A stretch of 64,000 nt of DNA from contig CM073323.1 in the NCBI GenBank assembly GCA_037043015.1, forward strand, positions 21,232,758 to 21,296,757, in the 5' to 3' direction. This document shows, piece after piece, positions 7,532 to 32,498 of the stretch. The stretch's first letter is position 1, and the number at the start of each line of letters is the position of its first letter. A program made the position numbers and the translations under genes. The DNA is from Bryum argenteum. Its lineage: Eukaryota; Streptophyta; Bryopsida; Bryales; Bryaceae. The notes under the pieces were generated by a model. It was not told the origin of the DNA and made no database searches. It worked only from the letters and a program-made list of their open reading frames with translations.

Positions 7532-7696
7532 TATGGTACCTGGATAAGATCAACCTCGTTAAGATCAACATCTCGTTAAGAACGCTGTCCATGTCCCTTT
7601 ATTATGCAAAAAGGCATTGTTTCGTTATGGTCAATGCTTGGATAAGATCAACGTTTTTGTCTGTCCGAAAACGTTTATCTAATCCAAGCATCACTG
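7532..7696. mobile_element. pogo-like MITE, copy 1
   Basis: About 165 bp, highly similar to 17129-17296. The right terminus reads AATCCAAGCATCACTG followed by TA; the left terminus is slightly eroded (TGGTACCTGGATAAGATC against CAGTAGCACTTGGATAAG in the other copy). CAGT ends, TA target and interior motifs CTCGTTAAGATCAACG fit pogo/Lemi-type elements of Tc1/mariner. It has no coding capacity; the short open frame crossing it is chance. Confidence 0.7.
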
Positions 7697-12734: not shown

Positions 12735-14250
12735 GCTGCCCTCACAAAGAGTCATAGAAAACAAAGCTCGCGAAAAAGGACGGAAACATGGCAGTGAGAG
12801 TACAACTTGATTGATGTTGCCATGCATGCATACATACAATTCACTCTATCCATGCACTGATGAACGGATGGTACAGACTCCTTGTGGCACAGACTCATTT
12901 GACATTCAAAAGACATTCCATATACCACAAAAATATTTCTCCTTCTACGACTCAAATCATTATTTCACTAAAATATTTGAATGTGAACAAATCAAAAGCA
13001 TGGAATGTGGCTTATATTACAAATTCGCCCCATGGCCTTGTTTTTCCTTTTACAAATCAGCCCCAGGGACTTTACACAAGGGGGAATTGGCCCCCACTTT
13101 GTTAATTTTTTTAGTATGTTCTCCAAGTGGCCCCTGGAGCTAATTGAGCTCAAAATATGAATGAATTAAATTGGAGATTTGTCGGCCTTGACTCCCAATG
13201 TAAAGCATCCCTAAGAGAAAGAGGGAGACTATATTGAAAACCAAAAAAAGGTAATGAAAACGGATGATAGAAGGTCCTTCACTACCAAGGAAAGTGTAAG
13301 CTCCAGTAATCATCAATGAAAGAAAAGCTTAAAACCGCCACCACCAGAAATAAGAAACAAATTCGAGGCACAACGTCGGATTCCACAATATACAAAGCAA
13401 AGACAGAAGACAGTCTTGGAGGAGGGAAACAAGAGCACATGAAGGTGTCAAAGGCGCGCGAACAGAGTAGTACGTCGTAGATAATGTATCTATGAGTTGA
13501 GTACCTCAGACATCCAGACTTTGTATATGTAAGAGACGATCATAGATATGTTTATTGCGGAGAGAGGATATATATTGTTTTGGTTATGTACATATCAATG
13601 TAATTATAGTTTCTTACAACCCGTAAGAACCTCTAAGGGTGCCATTTTTTATTAAACATTGCCATTTTTGACAAAATTGAGGTTAGAGTATACCTGCTTG
13701 GAGACTTGAAGGCCTCCACGTACTCCTCATGTATAGAGTACCTAACATTGCTTCCGAGAATCACCAAGGTAGGCTGTGAAGTCTATGGCATTCCAAAGTT
13801 GGCAAAAATGATCTTAAAGGTTGAGAACAGTGAAGAAGAAGAAGAAGAAGAGAATCTCGTGAGTAGAATGACTGAAAAGAATGTGGTCCGAACCATGCAG
13901 AATGTGGATTAAAAAGGTGATGTAAAGGAGTGATTGATGGCAGGAATCTGAGCCCTTATCCGGGGAGATCCGGGTCGAAGCCCAGCGATCGACAAGCATG
14001 GCCAACGAGAGTCGCATGGGAGGAGCACGAAATCAAGTACCCTGAACCCTCGAGCACGGAGTTAGCGAATGCGCCGACGAGTTTACACAGGAATCCCCAG
14101 GCTCACGTACAGGTCCATGATGCAGGGACCTGCCCATGCAGGCATTGATCGGAAGCCGGACATCAACAAGCATGGCGTGGCCACTACCACCGCCCTTAGA
14201 TGAGAAGGCAACCACTGCGCCCGCATTGGACTTACGACAAATTCCCTCTC
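12735..14250. other. Intergenic stretch upstream of the HsbA-like gene
   Basis: No gene is supported. It includes a short GAA run at 13831-13850. From about 13920 the base composition becomes GC-richer, consistent with the promoter region of the following gene. Confidence 0.4.
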
Positions 14251-14253
14251 TCC

Positions 14254-14260
14254 TATAAAA
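14254..14260 (+). promoter_or_regulatory. TATA box of the HsbA-like gene
   Basis: TATAAAA lies in the phrase TCCTATAAAAGTC. Transcription would start about 30 bases downstream (near 14285). A donor at 14334 (CCG|GTAAGC) and an acceptor ending at 14550 (GGTTGCAG) suggest a 5' UTR intron, which would remove the ATG at 14535 and leave 14565 as the first start. Confidence 0.6.
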
Positions 14261-14564
14261 GTCTTCGACCACCTTATCTGAAATTAATCCAAGCCTGTTC
14301 GCCGCACCGCTCCCTCCTTTCACTGTACATCCGGTAAGCTCATGCTGTGCTTCTCGCAGACTTGTCAATGCCACTTCTGATACGAGTCCATGCTGCATGC
14401 TCATGAGGGTGGCAATTGTGGATTACACTCATATGCATGGAAGTCTGGCACCTGCATTGTAATTTAGAACTTCTGGGTACAGATTGATATGGATCATTTC
14501 CGATTGATTGATTGTGGAATGCTGATATTGAGTTGTGAGTATGGTTGCAGTGTGTGGGTTCAAG

Positions 14565-16499
14565 ATGGTGTCGATGTCCCGGGTTGTGTTTCTGCTGCTG
14601 GTCAGCCTGGCGGTGGTGCAAGCGCTAGAGCACAGCGAGGTGATGCCAACGATCAGGCAACCTTCCCCCGCCGCGGCCATTGCCCAGGAGCAGACCGGAG
14701 CCAAGTTGGTGGACGTTATCGTGGGTGCCTTCAAGGAAGTCACAGCCCTGTCCGACCAGCTGCGCATTGAGACGCAGAAAATCAACAACTTGAACGCGGG
14801 TATCCAGGGAGCTAAGATCGCCCAGGGCTTCTCTGTTATCATCGCGAAGGTGACTGGCTACACTGCTGCGCTTGTCGGTAACCCCAGCCCCCTCCCCGAC
14901 GCCGACGCTCAGCTCGTAGTCGACTCCCTCACCACCTTCGTAAAGGTCAGTCCTCGCCCAATTCCCGGTTACAAATGTCGTTCCCATTGTTTCAGCGGGT
15001 TGACGGTCCGACTTTGTTTCGTGCGATAAGTGCAGGTCCACCAGGCGTTGCTGAATGTGGTGATTGGGAAACACGGGCTCTTAGCCTTGGTTCCATTCTT
15101 CGGGCCAATTCGGATTTCGCTCGTGAATCTGGAGGTAGTTGTGGACACGTTTGCGTTCGCTCTCATCGGTCTGATTCCCACACAGGAGAAGCCAGCTTCC
15201 ACCCAGGTGAAGAGTTTGGACGTTACCATCGGCAAAGCCATCGACACTTACGGCGGGCCTGTCCTCGCCGCGGCCATTGCCCAGGAGCAGACCGGAGCCA
15301 AGTTGGTGGACGTTATCGTGGGTGCCTTCAAGGAAGTCACAGCCCTGTCCGACCAGCTGCGCATTGAGACGCAGAAAATCAACAACTTGAACGCGGGTAT
15401 CCAAGGAGCGAAGATCGCCCAGGGCTTCTCTGTTATCATCGCGAAGGTGACTGGCTACACTGCTGCGCTTGTCGGTAACCCCAGCCCCCTCCCCGACGCC
15501 GACGCCCAGCTCGTAGTCGACGCTCTCACCACCTTCGTAAAGGTCAGTCCTCGCCCAATTCCCGGTTACAAATGTCGTTCCCATTGTTTCAGCGTTTTGA
15601 CGGTCCGGCTTTGTTTCGTGCGACAAGTGCAGGTCCACCAGGCGTTGCTGAATGTGGTGATTGGGAAACACGGGCTCTTAGCCTTGGTTCCATTCTTCGG
15701 GCCAATTCGGATTTCGCTCGTGAATCTGGAGGTAGTTGTGGACACGTTTGCGTTCGCTCTCATCGGTCTGATTCCCACACAGGAGAAGCCAGCTTCCACC
15801 CAGGTGAAGAGTTTGGACGTTACCATCGGCAAAGCCATCGACACTTACGGCGGGCCTATCCTCGCCGCGGTCATTGCCCAGGAGCAGACCGGAGCCAAGT
15901 TGGTGGACGTTATCGTGGGTGCCTTCAAGGAAGTCACAGCCCTGTCCGACCAGCTGCGCATTGAGACGCAGAAAATCAACAACTTGAACGCGGGTATCCA
16001 AGGAGCGAAGATCGCCCAGGGCTTCTCTGTTATCATCGCGAAGGTGACTGGCTACACTGCTGCGCTTGTCGGTAACCCCAGCCCCCTCCCCGACGCCGAC
16101 GCCCAGCTCGTAGTCGACTCCCTCACCACCTTCGTAAAGGTCAGTCCTCGCCCAATTCCCGGTTACAAATATCGTGACCAGTGTTTCAGCGGGTTGACGG
16201 TCCGACTTTGTTTCGTGCGATAAGTGCAGGTCCACCAGGCGTTGCTGAATGTGGTGATTGGGAAACACGGGCTCTTAGCCTTGGTTCCATTCTTCGAGCC
16301 AATTCGGATTTCGCTCGTGAATCTGGAGGTAGTTGTGGACACGTTTGCGTTCGCTCTCATCGGTCTGATTCCCACACAGGAGAAGCCAGCCTCCACCCAG
16401 GTGAAGAGTTTGGACGTTACCATCGGCAAAGCCATCGACGTTTACAGCAATTCCCTCCGCAAGGCCGCTCCCGCCTTCGAAGGCCACATCGACCACTAG
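14565..16499 (+). CDS. Secreted protein of three tandem HsbA-like domains (fungal-type)
   Basis: Exons 14565-14945, 15036-15542, 15633-16139 and 16230-16499 give 554 residues; the three introns are each 90 bp and in phase 0. Residues 1-20 form a signal peptide (VVFLLLVSLAVVQA). Then three nearly identical units of 169 residues follow, without cysteine, rich in amphipathic helix, each with the phrases LPDADAQLVVDSLTTFV, HQALLNVVIGKHGLL and VVDTFAFALIGLIP. These strongly resemble the HsbA / cell-wall mannoprotein family (Pfam HsbA), known from fungi, where members bind hydrophobic surfaces or lipids. It is far more GC-rich than its flanks. Location outside the cell, at wall or cuticle, is inferred from the signal peptide. 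Plant-side flanks (a MITE found elsewhere in the window, an F-box gene) argue against simple fungal contamination. Family assignment is by memory of the motifs, without a search. Confidence 0.82.
14669..16462 (+). repeat. Three tandem copies of a 597-bp unit (exon-intron-exon)
   Basis: Landmarks such as CATTGCCCAGGAGCAGACCG recur near 14679, 15276 and 15873, and the intron donors lie at 14946, 15543 and 16140: exactly 597 bp apart. Each unit covers 507 coding bases plus one 90-bp intron. Copies differ at only a handful of positions, including inside the introns, so the expansion is recent or kept uniform by gene conversion. Confidence 0.93.
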
Positions 16500-17128: not shown

Positions 17129-17296
17129 CAGTAGCACTTGGATAAGATCAACCTCGTTAATATCAACGTCTAGTTAACAACGTTGTTCTTGTCCCTTTAT
17201 TATGCAATAGAGGTATTGTTTCGATATGGTCAACGCTTGGATAAGACCAACGTTTTTTGTCTGTCCGAAAACGTTTGTCTAATCCAAGCACCACTG
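17129..17296. mobile_element. pogo-like MITE, copy 2
   Basis: Its 168 bp have ends CAGTAGCACTTGGATAAG and CTAATCCAAGCACCACTG, matching the copy at 7532-7696. TA precedes the left end (17127-17128); the right-hand TA has been lost. It lies in the spacer between the HsbA-like gene and the F-box gene and may influence the latter's promoter. Confidence 0.75.
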
Positions 17297-17594: not shown

Positions 17595-19214
17595 ATGACA
17601 TTTATGGATTCTAATTGGATGGCTCAATTGTGGTCTTCAGAGCAATCAGTCACCCACATCTTAAGGCCATCAATCACGAATGCAGTATTTGCGCACCTCA
17701 GTCGCACCTTCTCCGTTCGTGAGCTTGTGAAACTGAAGCTTGTGTGCAAACAGTTTACAGCATTGGTATCAGAAAGCAGCATTTTCACAGAACAGGCTCG
17801 TTACCAAGACGATTCCAAGGACTGGTACTTCCCGTTGTTATTTACAAAGAGTCTCGTTCATCCAACACCAGATGCATCGAAGAAGAAACGGAAACGAGAG
17901 TGGAGCCCCTCACCAGGTGCAGAAAAGAGACGGAATCGGAGGACCGTGTGGAATTGGTCTGGCATCCATCACCCCACGCAAAAGCCCCACACTCTCCCTT
18001 CCCTCGAGCATCTTCCCGGTGGCAAAATCAAGTTATGTGACAGGTACTTTGGCAGTCTCCTTGCTGGTTCAGGATCATTGTTGCTGTTCGTTGTCAAAAC
18101 CACGAACCAGTACGCACCTGGAGCTTGGAATAACAAGAACGACCTTCATCCCGAGATGCCTGGCCCATGGATACCGTTTATTGTGAGCAACCCGTTAACA
18201 AAAGAGTATAGGGTGCTTCCTGCACCTGCCAACGCGATGGCTACACGGTGGGACTACCACGGCGCTCGAGCTCACCTTGTGGAAGAAGACTGTGCTAACG
18301 CATACAAGGTCTTGCTACTGTTTCGAGACCGGCTTTTTGTTTACCAATCCAGCACCATGTCTTGGACTTCCTCAGTCTTCCACGAGCCAATTACATGGGG
18401 CTATCTTGGCCGTTCCGTCGGTGACTTGCATCGCGAATACAGGGACTATGTCCAAACTCCATATGCAGTTGTGGGGGGGAAGCTCGTGTATGCTGAGCTT
18501 GAATTCGATGGAAACGCCAAGCCCGAACGCCAGGACCAAAATGAGATGCTAAGGAAGGGTGGAGTGAGGTTATACGAAGTGGACGACAAAGCAGGCACAT
18601 GGGAACTCACATTCCGACATTCTCTGCAGGATTTCATCCCCAATTTCCAAAATTGGAATCCGGAGCATAAATTTCAACCCGGGAGCTACGAAATCGATAT
18701 AGTGAAGTGCATGGGTGGTGTATACATTGTCATTCCTGCAATCTTCGATATCTCCAAGAGTGTTTCAGAAGAGGTAAAGCAAATGTATAATCTCGGAAAG
18801 GATGGGACTTTCAAGAAATTTGGCTTCTTGCCTCTACAGTTTTATGTTTTACAGCTCCAAGGTAATGGTTTGCATTGTGGAGAGGCATTTATACAATTAC
18901 CCAGAGATAAAGGTAAGAATCACCGTGAGAATCATTCATATATGTCAAGTAAGATGCTAAATAGAGTAGTGTATTATTGCTGGCACAAGTGGAGGTGGTA
19001 TCGATGCAGGGGATATGGATCTACGATAAACATTGTGGTAGAAGGATGCGTTGTTCGTTACGATGTTATGACCGGTGTATCAAGAACTCAAATGGGAAGA
19101 CCATATGACTTCTGTGAAATGCAACCCGATGTGGCGTACAGGCCTAGCTTATATGAGTTCTGTGAAATGCAACCCGATGTGGCGTACAGGCCTAGCTTAC
19201 GAAGAAAACCATAG
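17595..19214 (+). CDS. F-box protein, intronless
   Basis: A single open frame of 539 residues. The amino-terminal part (about residues 25-70) has the F-box pattern with ITNAVFAHLSRTFSVRELVK and LKLVCKQFTALV, expected to bind SKP1 in an SCF ubiquitin ligase; the remainder is a long F-box-associated region of the kelch or FBA kind (phrases PFIVSNPLTKEYRVLP, AYKVLLLFRDRLFVY) that would choose the substrate. A lysine/arginine-rich patch (KKKRKREW, near residues 95-112) could be a nuclear signal. The extreme carboxy end carries a perfect-looking duplication of a 16-residue block. The start at 17595 is followed by a second ATG three codons on (17604), either of which could be used. The substrate is unknown. 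A broken relative lies 3 kb downstream. Confidence 0.85.
   Translation: MTFMDSNWMAQLWSSEQSVTHILRPSITNAVFAHLSRTFSVRELVKLKLVCKQFTALVSESSIFTEQARYQDDSKDWYFPLLFTKSLVHPTPDASKKKRKREWSPSPGAEKRRNRRTVWNWSGIHHPTQKPHTLPSLEHLPGGKIKLCDRYFGSLLAGSGSLLLFVVKTTNQYAPGAWNNKNDLHPEMPGPWIPFIVSNPLTKEYRVLPAPANAMATRWDYHGARAHLVEEDCANAYKVLLLFRDRLFVYQSSTMSWTSSVFHEPITWGYLGRSVGDLHREYRDYVQTPYAVVGGKLVYAELEFDGNAKPERQDQNEMLRKGGVRLYEVDDKAGTWELTFRHSLQDFIPNFQNWNPEHKFQPGSYEIDIVKCMGGVYIVIPAIFDISKSVSEEVKQMYNLGKDGTFKKFGFLPLQFYVLQLQGNGLHCGEAFIQLPRDKGKNHRENHSYMSSKMLNRVVYYCWHKWRWYRCRGYGSTINIVVEGCVVRYDVMTGVSRTQMGRPYDFCEMQPDVAYRPSLYEFCEMQPDVAYRPSLRRKP
19104..19199 (+). repeat. Two tandem 48-bp units at the end of the F-box gene
   Basis: The unit encodes FCEMQPDVAYRPSL preceded by YD or YE and is present twice in frame (19104-19151, 19152-19199), adding 16 residues just before the stop. 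Confidence 0.9.
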
Positions 19215-22254: not shown

Positions 22255-23060
22255 TGCAGTCTAGCCCTCTATAGCTGCGGATGCAATCTTTGCTTACTTG
22301 AGCCGCACCCTCTTCATCCGCAAGCTTGTGCAGCTCACTTTTGTGTGCAAACAATTTATTGCTCTCGTATTTGAGAACAAAATCTTCTTGGCACATGCTC
22401 GTTGTTAAGACGACTCCTTAAACAATTAATAAAAGATAAGTTCAAGTAACTTTGCAAGTCATTTGCCCACCACCAAATCCATTAGGGACCCGGAGATGAG
22501 AGAGGAGCTCGTGGGGCTCGTCTCAAGTGTATCATCTTGCGAGAGAGGTTCACATCCTTCCGTCCTTAGAGCATCGACCTTACACCTAGTTCAAGTTCAA
22601 TGACCCTGGCTTCTACGGTCTTTTTGCTAGTTGAGAAGAATTGTTGTTGTTCAGGCTCAAGGTGAGGATGCAACACCGTTAATATGGACCTTGGAATACT
22701 AAGCTAAGAAACCTTGCCATGCGTAAGATTTGAACTCCACTTCTCATTAACAACACGTTGACAAAACAATAAAAAGTGCTCCCTTCACCTCCTGATGTGA
22801 TGTGAGCTTTGTGCGACTACCATGTACACCGAGTACACCTTGTGTTGGACGACTATGTTAATATTTAGAGACTAGTTTTATTGTTTCCAATCTTCCTTTG
22901 TGTTTACAAGTCTACAAATGAGTCTTGGATCTCTCCGAAGTTCGTGACCCCATTGAGTGGGGCTTCCGTCATGCAAACGTTGGTTCATCTCATTACATTG
23001 ATGCTCCTAGTGCAATCCTAGGAGGGAATTTGTAGAATGTCGAGGTGAAGGTAGTAGGAA
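22255..23060 (+). pseudogene. F-box gene relic, paralogue of the gene at 17595
   Basis: The first 130 bp read AIFAYLSRTLFIRKLVQL and FVCKQFIALVFENKIF, closely following the F-box of the intact gene, and later pieces follow its downstream regions in order (a PLLINNTLTK-like phrase near 22730, a VLLFPIFLCVYKS-like phrase near 22880, then a PLSGASVMQ-like phrase near 22950). Stops and frame changes occur from about residue 50 onward and the carboxy end is missing. It therefore looks like an old tandem duplicate that died. Confidence 0.8.
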
Positions 23061-28907: not shown

Positions 28908-29700
28908 TGTGAACACGAGAGGAGGAGAACAATTGTAGGAGGACACGAGAAGAGGGGACACTAGTGAGAGGATACGAGAAAAGGGAATAATGTTAGGAGG
29001 ATATGAGAGGAGGGACAGTGGTACAAGGACACGAAAGGAGGGACAGTGGTACAAGGATACGAGAGGAGGGACAATGGTACGAGGACACGAGAGGAGGGGA
29101 AAATGGTAGGAGGACGAGGGGACAATGGTAAGAGGATACGAGAAGAGGGAACAATCGTAGGAGGACAAGGAGACAGTGGTAAGAGGATACAAGAAGAAAG
29201 AACAATGGTAGGAGGACGAGGGGACATTGGTAAGAGGATACGAGAAGAGGGAACAATGGTAAGAAGACGAGGGGACAGTGGTAAGAAGATAAGAGAAGAG
29301 GGAACAATGGTAGGAGGACATGAGAGAAGGGATAGGAGTACGAGGACACCAAGGGAGGAAAATATGGTACAAGAATACGAGAGGAGGGGACAATGGTAAG
29401 ATTGGTAAGAGAATACAAGAGGAGGTGACAGTGGTACGAAGACACGAGAGGAGGGGACAGTGACGGGACAAAGACACGAGAGGAGGGGACAGTGGTAAGA
29501 GGATACGAGAAGAGGGAACAATGGTAGGAGGACACGACAGGAAGGGAGGCTATGAGAGGAGGAGGTAGTGGTACCACAACACAAGGAAAAAAGACAAGGG
29601 TACGAGAACACGAGGGAACATGGACATGAGGGAATAAGAAGGGCAAGAGGATAGGAGGGGACACAAACACATGGGGTTAGGGAGACAAGACAATGGCACA
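28908..29700. repeat. Purine-rich minisatellite, about 51-bp period
   Basis: About 790 bp are built of variants of AGAGGATACGAGAAGAGGGA and AACAATGGTAGGAGGAC; phases at 29131, 29182, 29233 and 29284 give a period near 51 bp, itself made of two related half units. The plus strand is almost only purines with T in fixed places. All six frames are long and open because the repeat lacks stops, so predicted Ser/Pro/Leu-rich proteins on the minus strand are artefacts. Confidence 0.9.
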
Positions 29701-30518
29701 AGAATAAGATAAAGTGTTTTTTATGTAGATTGAACCCAAAAATTCATCGGTTATAGCAAAAGAGGTACATAATTGTAAATTTGATGAACCTTTTTTGATA
29801 TTTGAGTAATTGTTCTTTGTAATCGTGATAACCTTCAAAGTAGTGCGTTCACCTAAAATGTTTGATAGGTTTAATTTAAATGTTGTAAACATGAAATGTT
29901 TGATAGGTTTAATTTAAATGTTGTAGATAAATCATATTCCAATAAGACTTGACATATTTCACTTTTATAGTGTACATTTACATGATACATAAATTGTTTT
30001 AGCACACAAATTCCCAATGTAACACAGATGTGCACTTAGCACAAGTCACTTCACATAGACATGGGACACTTGTTAGAATTGATGATACATTAGAATGTTT
30101 TGGATGTAACGTGCCTATGTAAAAAGGAAATTAAGTACCTAGTACAGTTATTTTTGTCAAAATATAAGTTCCGGTAATCTAAACACTGAATGTAACCGGC
30201 CCCGCTTGCTAACTGCACCGATGGGTAACCTTCCATGGTTGCATTAACCTCGTGTCGGACTGTGGCTTCCGTCAGGGTTTGGTTGTATCCGTTACGAGAG
30301 AACCCTCGCCGGGAGCGAGACCAGGGCGGGTGTATGCAGTTCCGGGCCGGATATCGGAGGTTCTCAAGGCTGTCGCCTCTCTCGGCAGCGTCGGGCGGGC
30401 GGAGGGAGGCGGGAGGCTAGCGATGGTGCTTGACGACGCTGGATGGCATGACGCCAGGAGGGCTGTGAGCGCCGAACGCCACGATTTGCAGGCGGACGGC
30501 CTTTGCTTAGGGCGGGGA
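29701..30518. other. Spacer and 5' region of the ANP32-type gene
   Basis: A 38-bp phrase GAAATGTTTGATAGGTTTAA and its flank is tandemly duplicated at about 29857-29927. From 30200 the sequence becomes GC-rich (promoter and leader). The reading frame of the next gene is open upstream to about 30252, but family comparison places the start at 30519. Confidence 0.5.
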
Positions 30519-32498
30519 ATGGAGGAGGGCGCGTGGGACAGAGCGGTGGAGCAAGCCCGCGTCGGAGAGCCTGTGACGGACGTGGAGGCGCTCACACTCG
30601 ACGGACTCGTCAAGTGCGCACAGGGGAAGTTGCCCAAGTCCAAGGTCTTCGCTCCTTTCACGCAGCTCAAGCGCCTCTCGATCGCCAACGTCGGCCTCTC
30701 GTCGCTCGCAGATTTCCCGTCGTTGCCGCACCTGGAGCGGTTGATCCTCAGCGACAATCGAATCGCCGCGGGCTTGGAGCACCTGGTGTACGCAGGCCTC
30801 AAGTCGCTACGCGAGTTGGATTTGTCCAACAATAAAATTCAGTCCGTGGAGGACCTCAAGCCGTTGGCGCAGTTGAAGCTCGAGTCGCTGGACTTGTATG
30901 AGTGCCCCGTCACCCGCAGCGCGGACTATAGGGCAAAGGTGTTTGGCATGATGAAGTCGTTACGGTTTCTGGACAAGACGGACGTCACCGGGAACGAGCG
31001 TCCCGAGTCTGATGAGGAAGAGGAGGAGTCGGAGGAGGAAGAGGATGTAGATGACCTCAATGGCGACGGTGCTGAGGTCGACGGCGACGAGGAGGAGGGC
31101 GTGGAGGGAGACTCCAAAGGCGCCGCGGTCCACGAGGAGGATGACGATGAGGGCGAGGAGGATGAGGAGCGGGATGATGATGGGGAGGACAATGAGGAGT
31201 TAGAAGACGAAGAAGTGGACGAGGGCGGGAGTTATCAAGAAGAAGTCGTTGTTGCGGCTACAAGCCGTGTCGTCGTGCAAGGCCATGTGAATAATGAGCA
31301 CGGCAGCGACGAGGAGGAGGTAGAAGACGAGGAGGACGACAATGTAGAGGTGCAAGACATCGAGGAGAGTGAGGAAGAAGAGGTTGGGGACGAGGATGAC
31401 GAGGACGCTGTCGTCGACGAGGACGACGAGGACGCTGTCGTCGACGAGGAAGAAGAGGAAGACGACGAGGGTACTGCCTCAAACTTTTCTCTCTTTGCGT
31501 TTGTTAAAACCATGGGCGTCAAATAGCCATCCTATCGCCTTGGTAGCACCATGATTGCATGTTTGACCGACTATATTCCTGTTCGGTGTTATTTCTTTAT
31601 TCTTCTTGTAACTCTGTCTGTTTGGGAGGAAATCGACTGGCTTTTGGGTCCTTGTTAACCCTAGGTGTTTAACTCCTTTGGCAAGCCTGTGAGTGCGTTA
31701 GTGATGGATGCAAGTATGCTGAAAGAAGACGTTCTTGTTTTTAGAGCCCGTAAGTGGCGCTCATGTGAGCACCGAGGGCGAGCTCGACGTTCAAGAAAAC
31801 GAGGAGGATGAGGAGGATGAAAACGGAGAGTTAGGGGAGGACGAAGAGGACGACGAGGTTGAAGACGACGCTGTGAACAACGATGAAGGCGAAGAGGAAG
31901 TTGAAGAGGAGGTAACTTGCGCTTGTTTATTTCTGAACTCCTTAGAGCCTCTCGTAGATTCTCACCGGAGCGAGACATTCGGTGATTGTCCCGTTTATTG
32001 TTCCGGGATTTTTGGGAAACGCAGCAGTTGTGTTGTGATGGAAGGTACAATTGAGTCGAATGGATCGTCTGTACGACGTCCATGCGTGCTCGTGGCCTTG
32101 TGTGTGCATCTGGTAGACCTTTTATGTTGGGTTTTACACTTTCAATGGTTTCTATGGATCTTGTGATTGCCAAGCTAGAATATCTATTTGTTTTGGTGCC
32201 TTCGTCGGCACGATACTGGATTGGTTTTCTGATTGTGTGTGTGTGAATGCATGTGAAGGATGACGAGGAAGAGGAAGAGTACGGAACGAAATACCTCGTG
32301 CAACCTATCGGCCAGCCTGAGGAGGATGAAGGAGCAAGTGATTTCGAACCCGGGGACGACGACGATGAAGAAGACGAAGATTTCGAGGACGAAGAAGACG
32401 ACGAGGACCCTGTAAAGGAGCCAGTGGGGTTAAAGGACAACCGAAAAAGAATGAGGGAGGAAACTGGCGAGAAAGAGGAACGGCCGGCTAAGCACTAA
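30519..32498 (+). CDS. ANP32-type acidic leucine-rich nuclear phosphoprotein
   Basis: Exons 30519-31470, 31745-31911 and 32259-32498 encode 452 residues. Residues 1-150 form the ANP32 leucine-rich repeat cap (TLDGLVKCAQGKLP, KRLSIANVGLSSLADFP, LILSDNRIAAGLEHLV, LRELDLSNNKIQSVEDL) with the closing LKLESLDLYECPVT and RFLDKTD. The rest is an unusually long aspartate/glutamate tail, ending in a basic NRKRMREE nuclear-signal-like segment. ANP32 proteins act in the nucleus as histone chaperones and phosphatase inhibitors. I chose 30519 because MEEGAWDRAVEQA aligns with the start of plant homologues; upstream ATG at 30423 would extend the protein by 32 residues. Typical plant members are longer than animal ones and have this long tail. 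Coding of the tail is GA-rich, so the opposite strand shows false Ser-rich frames. Confidence 0.9.

Follow-up and report, generated by a model that had tools for sequence, protein, structure and literature searches.

A gene in apparently plant DNA encoding a candidate secreted protein with three tandem HsbA-like domains

The window, by which we mean the whole 64-kb stretch of DNA that was analyzed, contains at 14565–16499 what looks like an intact gene of four exons (Table 1). The span given for it in the first-pass annotation was right, with an ATG at 14565 and a TAG that ends at 16499. The spliced coding sequence of 1665 nt reads in a single frame into a protein of 554 amino acids. All three introns of the coding region are 90 nt long, follow the GT-AG rule with ends of the form GTCAGT...GTGCAG and interrupt each of the repeated units at the same place. 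The putative intron in the 5′ leader contains 10 ATGs and, when transcription is assumed to start at 14285, the spliced leader would hold none.

Table 1. Coordinates of the gene, its repeat array and the flanking repeats, numbered within the window
Feature	Position	Strand	Remarks
Second copy of MITE-like repeat	7538..7696	+	5′ of the gene; 89% identity to the 3′ copy over 161 bp
TATA box TATAAAAG	14254..14261	+	311 bp 5′ of the start codon; sole TATAAA in 14001–14564
Putative 5′-leader intron	14334..14550	+	217 nt, GTAAGC...TTGCAG; inferred
Exon 1	14565..14945	+	signal-like N-terminus, linker, first half of domain 1
Tandem array, about three 597-bp units	14666..16448	+	2.99 periods; in register with the protein domains
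Intron 1	14946..15035	+	90 nt, in-frame TAA
Exon 2	15036..15542	+	169 codons; joins the latter half of domain 1 to the first half of domain 2
Intron 2	15543..15632	+	90 nt, open in frame (CAA where introns 1 and 3 have TAA)
Exon 3	15633..16139	+	169 codons; joins the latter half of domain 2 to the first half of domain 3
Intron 3	16140..16229	+	90 nt, in-frame TAA
Exon 4	16230..16499	+	latter half of domain 3, then a unique ~17-residue tail SNSLRKAAPAFEGHIDH and the stop
MITE-like repeat	17129..17296	+	3′ flank; ~168 bp, imperfect 19-bp inverted ends

A reading of the 90-nt stretches as coding was ruled out because two of the three copies carry an in-frame TAA and because these stretches have changed faster than the exons. 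The use of an alternative acceptor, TTTCAG, within the 90-nt stretch was also rejected, since, on a reading by hand, it would put the following exon out of frame. Retention of intron 2 would lengthen domain 2 by 30 residues, three cysteines among them, and retention of intron 1 or intron 3 would truncate the protein.

The repeated part of the gene consists of three direct copies at a spacing of 597 bp, which are 97 to 98% identical over the reported stretch of 300 nt. Once the 90-nt intron is subtracted, 507 nt remain, so that every period lengthens the protein by exactly 169 residues. The edges of the array are also the edges of the domains: ahead of the first copy come just the hydrophobic N-terminus and a short linker, and behind the last one just the unique C-terminal tail. 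A tblastn search with one unit detected no further copies in the 64-kb window, returning the three units themselves and one match at E 6.4. Between copies 2 and 3, changes were counted at 8 of 90 intron positions versus 5 of 487 exon positions (Fisher p 0.00017); the corresponding counts were 4/90 versus 5/487 for copies 1 and 2 (p 0.037) and 4/90 versus 6/487 for copies 1 and 3 (p 0.055). All three counts exclude the positions at the array edges (8 at the start and 12 at the end of the 597-bp period), and the pairs share copies and are not independent. Gene conversion may contribute to this contrast between exons and introns. The exon differences altered an amino acid in two of five cases (copies 1 and 2), two of six (copies 1 and 3) and four of five (copies 2 and 3), proportions that give no clear sign of selection acting on the protein.

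The spliced 554-residue product contains the three cysteine-free units of 169 residues that had been reported for this locus, together with their two recurrent phrases. Both HQALLNVVIGKHGLL and VVDTFAFALIGLIP occur three times, once apiece in exons 2, 3 and 4. Cys, Trp and N-X-S/T sites are absent from the entire chain. By hydropathy alone, the N-terminus has a hydrophobic core that reaches a mean value of 3.25 over 11 residues; from residue 21 onward the protein would have a mass of about 56 kDa, a pI of 6.0 and a GRAVY of 0.49.

Downstream of the gene we found the exon of a Rab7-type GTPase (the best PDB matches are named Rab7), exons of an acetyl-CoA synthetase, WD40 and RING frames and a tRNA-Val(AAC), the tRNA being the sole match in Rfam. 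We take the Rab7 exon, the tRNA-Val(AAC) and the acetyl-CoA synthetase letters to be of land-plant type; the setting resembles the model liverwort Marchantia. Upstream, a frame for a DDE transposase was the only identification, and no plant-like gene was identified 5′ of the gene. The MITE of the local repertoire that had been noted beside the gene is present, its 3′ copy has ends of the form CAGTRGYRCTTGGATWAGA, and members of the same family lie on both sides. Besides the gene, the window has 94 reading frames with at least 90 residues; Pfam scanning covered 15 of them, and among these 15 no second fungal-type gene was detected. A single-exon frame of 539 amino acids at 17595–19214 is F-box-like (weak Pfam match, E 0.094) and has a 48-bp duplication close to its 3′ end; 4.6 kb on, positions 22278–22417 are 70% identical to a stretch of this frame and perhaps represent a decayed paralogue. 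Further along, an LRR protein ending in a long acidic tail, presumably ANP32-like, is found (window 28915–31526) directly after a purine-rich tandem array at 28915–29537, and the GC skew reaches 0.525 in 29001–30000.

The GC-richness of the gene had initially been taken as a foreign mark. This fails: GC3 is 0.744 in the gene and nearly equal, at 0.722, in the LRR/acidic gene at 30252–31526 (0.459 to 0.550 in five other frames), and GC-richness is therefore no sign of foreign DNA here. The observed/expected ratio of CpG in exon 2 was 0.95, versus 0.56 to 1.18 in seven other frames. On composition, a foreign origin can be neither proved nor excluded; a transfer that is old and ameliorated would give the same picture.

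When compared to Pfam, the whole protein matched HsbA (PF12296) in three stretches with E 1.3e-14 and 55.2 bits, a score that is above the cut-off of 33.5 bits and inflated by the repeats. Since three near-identical copies add up in a whole-protein score, a single unit was taken as the fair test. One unit reached 24.9 to 25.3 bits against the same cut-off, with E values of 2.3e-5 to 2.9e-5 and a match that covered profile positions 8–120/121. None of nine decoys of the unit (eight shuffled, one reversed) matched HsbA or the second family discussed below, C166, at E up to 1. The frame at 15030–16223, in which the introns are left in, spans one domain completely and the other two in part. For this unspliced frame HsbA did not appear among the matches up to E 0.1, whereas C166 still did; splicing thus restores the HsbA match. 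In 14 control prokaryote genomes HsbA was above its cut-off in none, and nine of them had a hit with an E value of 1 or less. Weak matches of the whole protein to DUF6389, PRD1_P5_C and DUF5460 were set aside as repeat-inflated because the single unit brought back DUF6389 alone, at E 0.14, although this family was over its cut-off in the whole protein. The proposal of three HsbA-type domains is therefore backed by a Pfam profile match, but a weaker one than had been implied, with 25 instead of 33.5 bits for a single unit. The broader claim of the first-pass annotation, a secreted HsbA-like protein in apparently plant DNA, is likewise supported, the N-terminus being secretion-like by hydropathy only.

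HsbA is a family best known from fungi. A fungal origin of the gene is likely, if unproven; the idea of a fungal donor rests on the fungal nature of HsbA as we know it and on the parallel with published transfers in Marchantia. We place just on the probable side the reading of the locus as a host-integrated plant gene for a secreted protein with three tandem helical domains of HsbA/Mp1-like type, derived from a single-domain fungal ancestor. This ancestor would have been a two-exon gene with one intron inside its domain, taken up by a plant ancestor, after which unequal crossing-over would have copied the whole domain together with the intron. The copies would then be young, or kept alike by gene conversion. 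Multiplication of the domain after capture, as suggested earlier, fits the 97–98% identity of the units, but a donor gene that already had several domains, followed by later homogenization, is an alternative. The fungal-type genes of Marchantia attributed to transfer include terpene synthases, fruit-body lectins and GH88 (PMC12890914), and about 20 well-supported events are counted for fungal genes in plants (PMC12448838). Literature searches for HsbA and related terms in combination with Marchantia, bryophytes or horizontal transfer gave no report of such a plant gene among the matches listed, in the portions of text that these contained. The one co-mention among them is located inside a reference list, and no literature on the family C166 was found. 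The gene is probably newly described; fungal-type genes in Marchantia are already known, and the unusual point would be the triplication of the domain.

The explanation that survives best beside this one, though we consider it unlikely, is that of a native, vertically inherited family, in which HsbA-like helical domains would be older and more widespread than the fungi and no transfer would have taken place. It is consistent with a match as remote as 25 bits per unit, with composition and CpG values inside the range of other genes in the window and with a TATA box and leader intron of the ordinary kind. It is at odds with the fungal character of HsbA, again as known to us, and with the finding that the family was over its cut-off in none of the 14 control prokaryote genomes; nor was there, among the matches listed, a real co-mention of HsbA in the literature on Marchantia or bryophytes. 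A relationship to HsbA may also be lacking altogether, the protein being an alanine/valine-rich helical repeat protein that matches the profile by composition. The score of the single unit under the curated cut-off agrees with this, as do the structural comparisons: solved structures gave no significant match (one chain at E 0.56 in one search, none at E up to 10 in the other), and two single-sequence structure models were poor, with a mean pLDDT of 37.4 each. The match is, however, collinear along nearly the whole profile, and decoys of equal composition failed to reproduce it in nine out of nine cases, which makes non-homology quite unlikely in our judgment.

We regard as very improbable that fungal contamination or a chimeric assembly placed a block of fungal DNA in a plant contig. 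The GC content of 14–16 kb is above that of the near flanks, every plant-like gene identified is situated on its downstream side, and liverworts harbor many fungal endophytes (PMC9516144). On the other side, one MITE family is found both 5′ and 3′ of the gene, its GC3 is on par with that of another gene in the window, and the 15 of 94 frames that were scanned included no second gene of fungal type. Contamination is less likely because of the flanks, with the same MITE on both sides, and these flanks would speak for integration into the host.

The best Pfam score of the unit was obtained with C166 (PF17615), a family named after ORF C-166, a fuselloviral membrane protein of the archaeal virus SSV1. 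The whole protein matched this family in three stretches with E 7.6e-38, and one unit scored 52.0 to 52.4 bits, above the cut-off of 36.7; SSV1 C-166 itself scores 262.7 bits against PF17615. With a profile of eight viral sequences, the unit obtained 6.1 bits, the best of the nine decoys 3.9 and SSV1, a member of the profile, 289.9. SSV1 C-166 alone, compared with the unit by phmmer, gave 12.7 bits (best decoy 1.3), and BLASTP aligned the two with 35% over 43 residues at E 9e-5, calculated for this one pair. A small local likeness between the unit and SSV1 C-166 does exist, as the unit scored higher than all nine decoys in all three decoy comparisons. In the 14 control prokaryote genomes C166 was above its cut-off in none. 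Kinship of the gene with the fuselloviral protein, to which the Pfam score and the short local similarity would point, is nevertheless scarcely credible and was rejected on the viral profile, where the unit lies near the best decoy, a tblastn search of 50,697 phage records with the unit likewise returning nothing at E up to 10. The near-invisibility of the unit to a virus-only profile suggests that the PF17615 model most likely includes non-viral sequences resembling the present unit, probably fungal ones. The family is probably a mixture, which could mislead annotation.

Other collections were also searched for relatives. Among viral contigs, 23 pattern matches were obtained, none of which was confirmed, and a scan with a degenerate motif gave none; the 236 pattern matches in prokaryote genomes were not confirmed either. 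Three prokaryote stretches with the degenerate motif, for which tblastn confined to 8-kb regions selected by that motif gave best E values of 0.015, 5.5 and 0.77, were judged to be chance, with in-frame stops flanking the motif or inside it. Plasmids yielded no relative (one record at E 0.7), NCBIfam and PADLOC no match and PHROGs a single match at E 0.057. As the DNA collections searched were not built to hold fungi or plants, this lack of relatives says little.

By analogy with the fungal proteins, the most likely function of the product would be that of a secreted polyvalent binder of fatty acids or hydrophobic surfaces. Each secreted domain would fold as a helical bundle that lacks cysteines and has an apolar face or pocket, and could take up a fatty acid or lie on a hydrophobic surface, and the presence of three domains per chain would raise the avidity. 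The protein might in this way coat waxy or lipid surfaces or soak up lipids at the border between plant and microbe. Its role in the plant could be surface coating, lipid carriage or the capture of microbial lipids; a role in the cuticle or air chamber is speculation. Tentatively, and as a possibility only, a fungal surface- or lipid-binding domain would have been made into a three-headed secreted plant protein that coats the plant's own apolar surfaces or mops up fungal lipids and lipid signals, a colonization tool turned surface or defense protein in which the number of domains is still shifting by unequal crossing-over. If confirmed, a non-enzymatic surface or lipid binder would join the few fungal genes counted so far in plants and provide a single gene, in a plant resembling Marchantia, through which a use of fungal surface chemistry by plants could be addressed. 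With such a near-identical array of domains, copy number between accessions would be a direct and cheap gauge of recent change. Two fungal examples concern the plant surface and disease: an expansion of HsbA, 14 versus 1 to 7, is described for a fungus that lives on the surface of apples (PMC5602860), and knock-out of an HsbA-domain protein in the rice blast fungus lowered its pathogenicity (PMC6859710).

The closest comparison is with Aspergillus oryzae HsbA, which, when calcium is present, attaches to a polyester and brings in the cutinase CutL1 (PMC9394342). The protein described here resembles it in its putatively secreted type, in its small domain without a cysteine pattern and in the profile positions matched (8–120/121). 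It differs in that HsbA is a protein of 14.4 kDa (PMC9394342) whereas three near-identical domains stand in tandem here, in that the gene lies in apparently plant DNA and in that one unit fails to reach the Pfam cut-off. Talaromyces marneffei Mp1p and its homologues share with it an arrangement in which domains of about 150 residues follow one another in tandem on a chain that is secreted, putatively so in the present case (PMC4999278). Mp1p has two such domains, the second of which binds palmitic acid, and its homologues have no or one intron in the table rows shown there (PMC4999278). Unlike Mp1p, which carries a Ser/Thr-rich stretch and a GPI anchor, the plant protein has three domains and, by eye, neither a Ser/Thr-rich stretch nor a hydrophobic C-terminal end. 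The C166 family provides the best Pfam score of the unit, but its virus-only profile shows hardly any kinship. Finally, the terpene synthases, lectins and GH88 of Marchantia are, like the present gene, cases of a fungal-type protein in a plant genome (PMC12890914). For the terpene synthases and GH88 phylogenies are cited. In the case of the terpene synthases it was the gene that multiplied after transfer (PMC12890914); here it was the domain, and not the gene, that multiplied.
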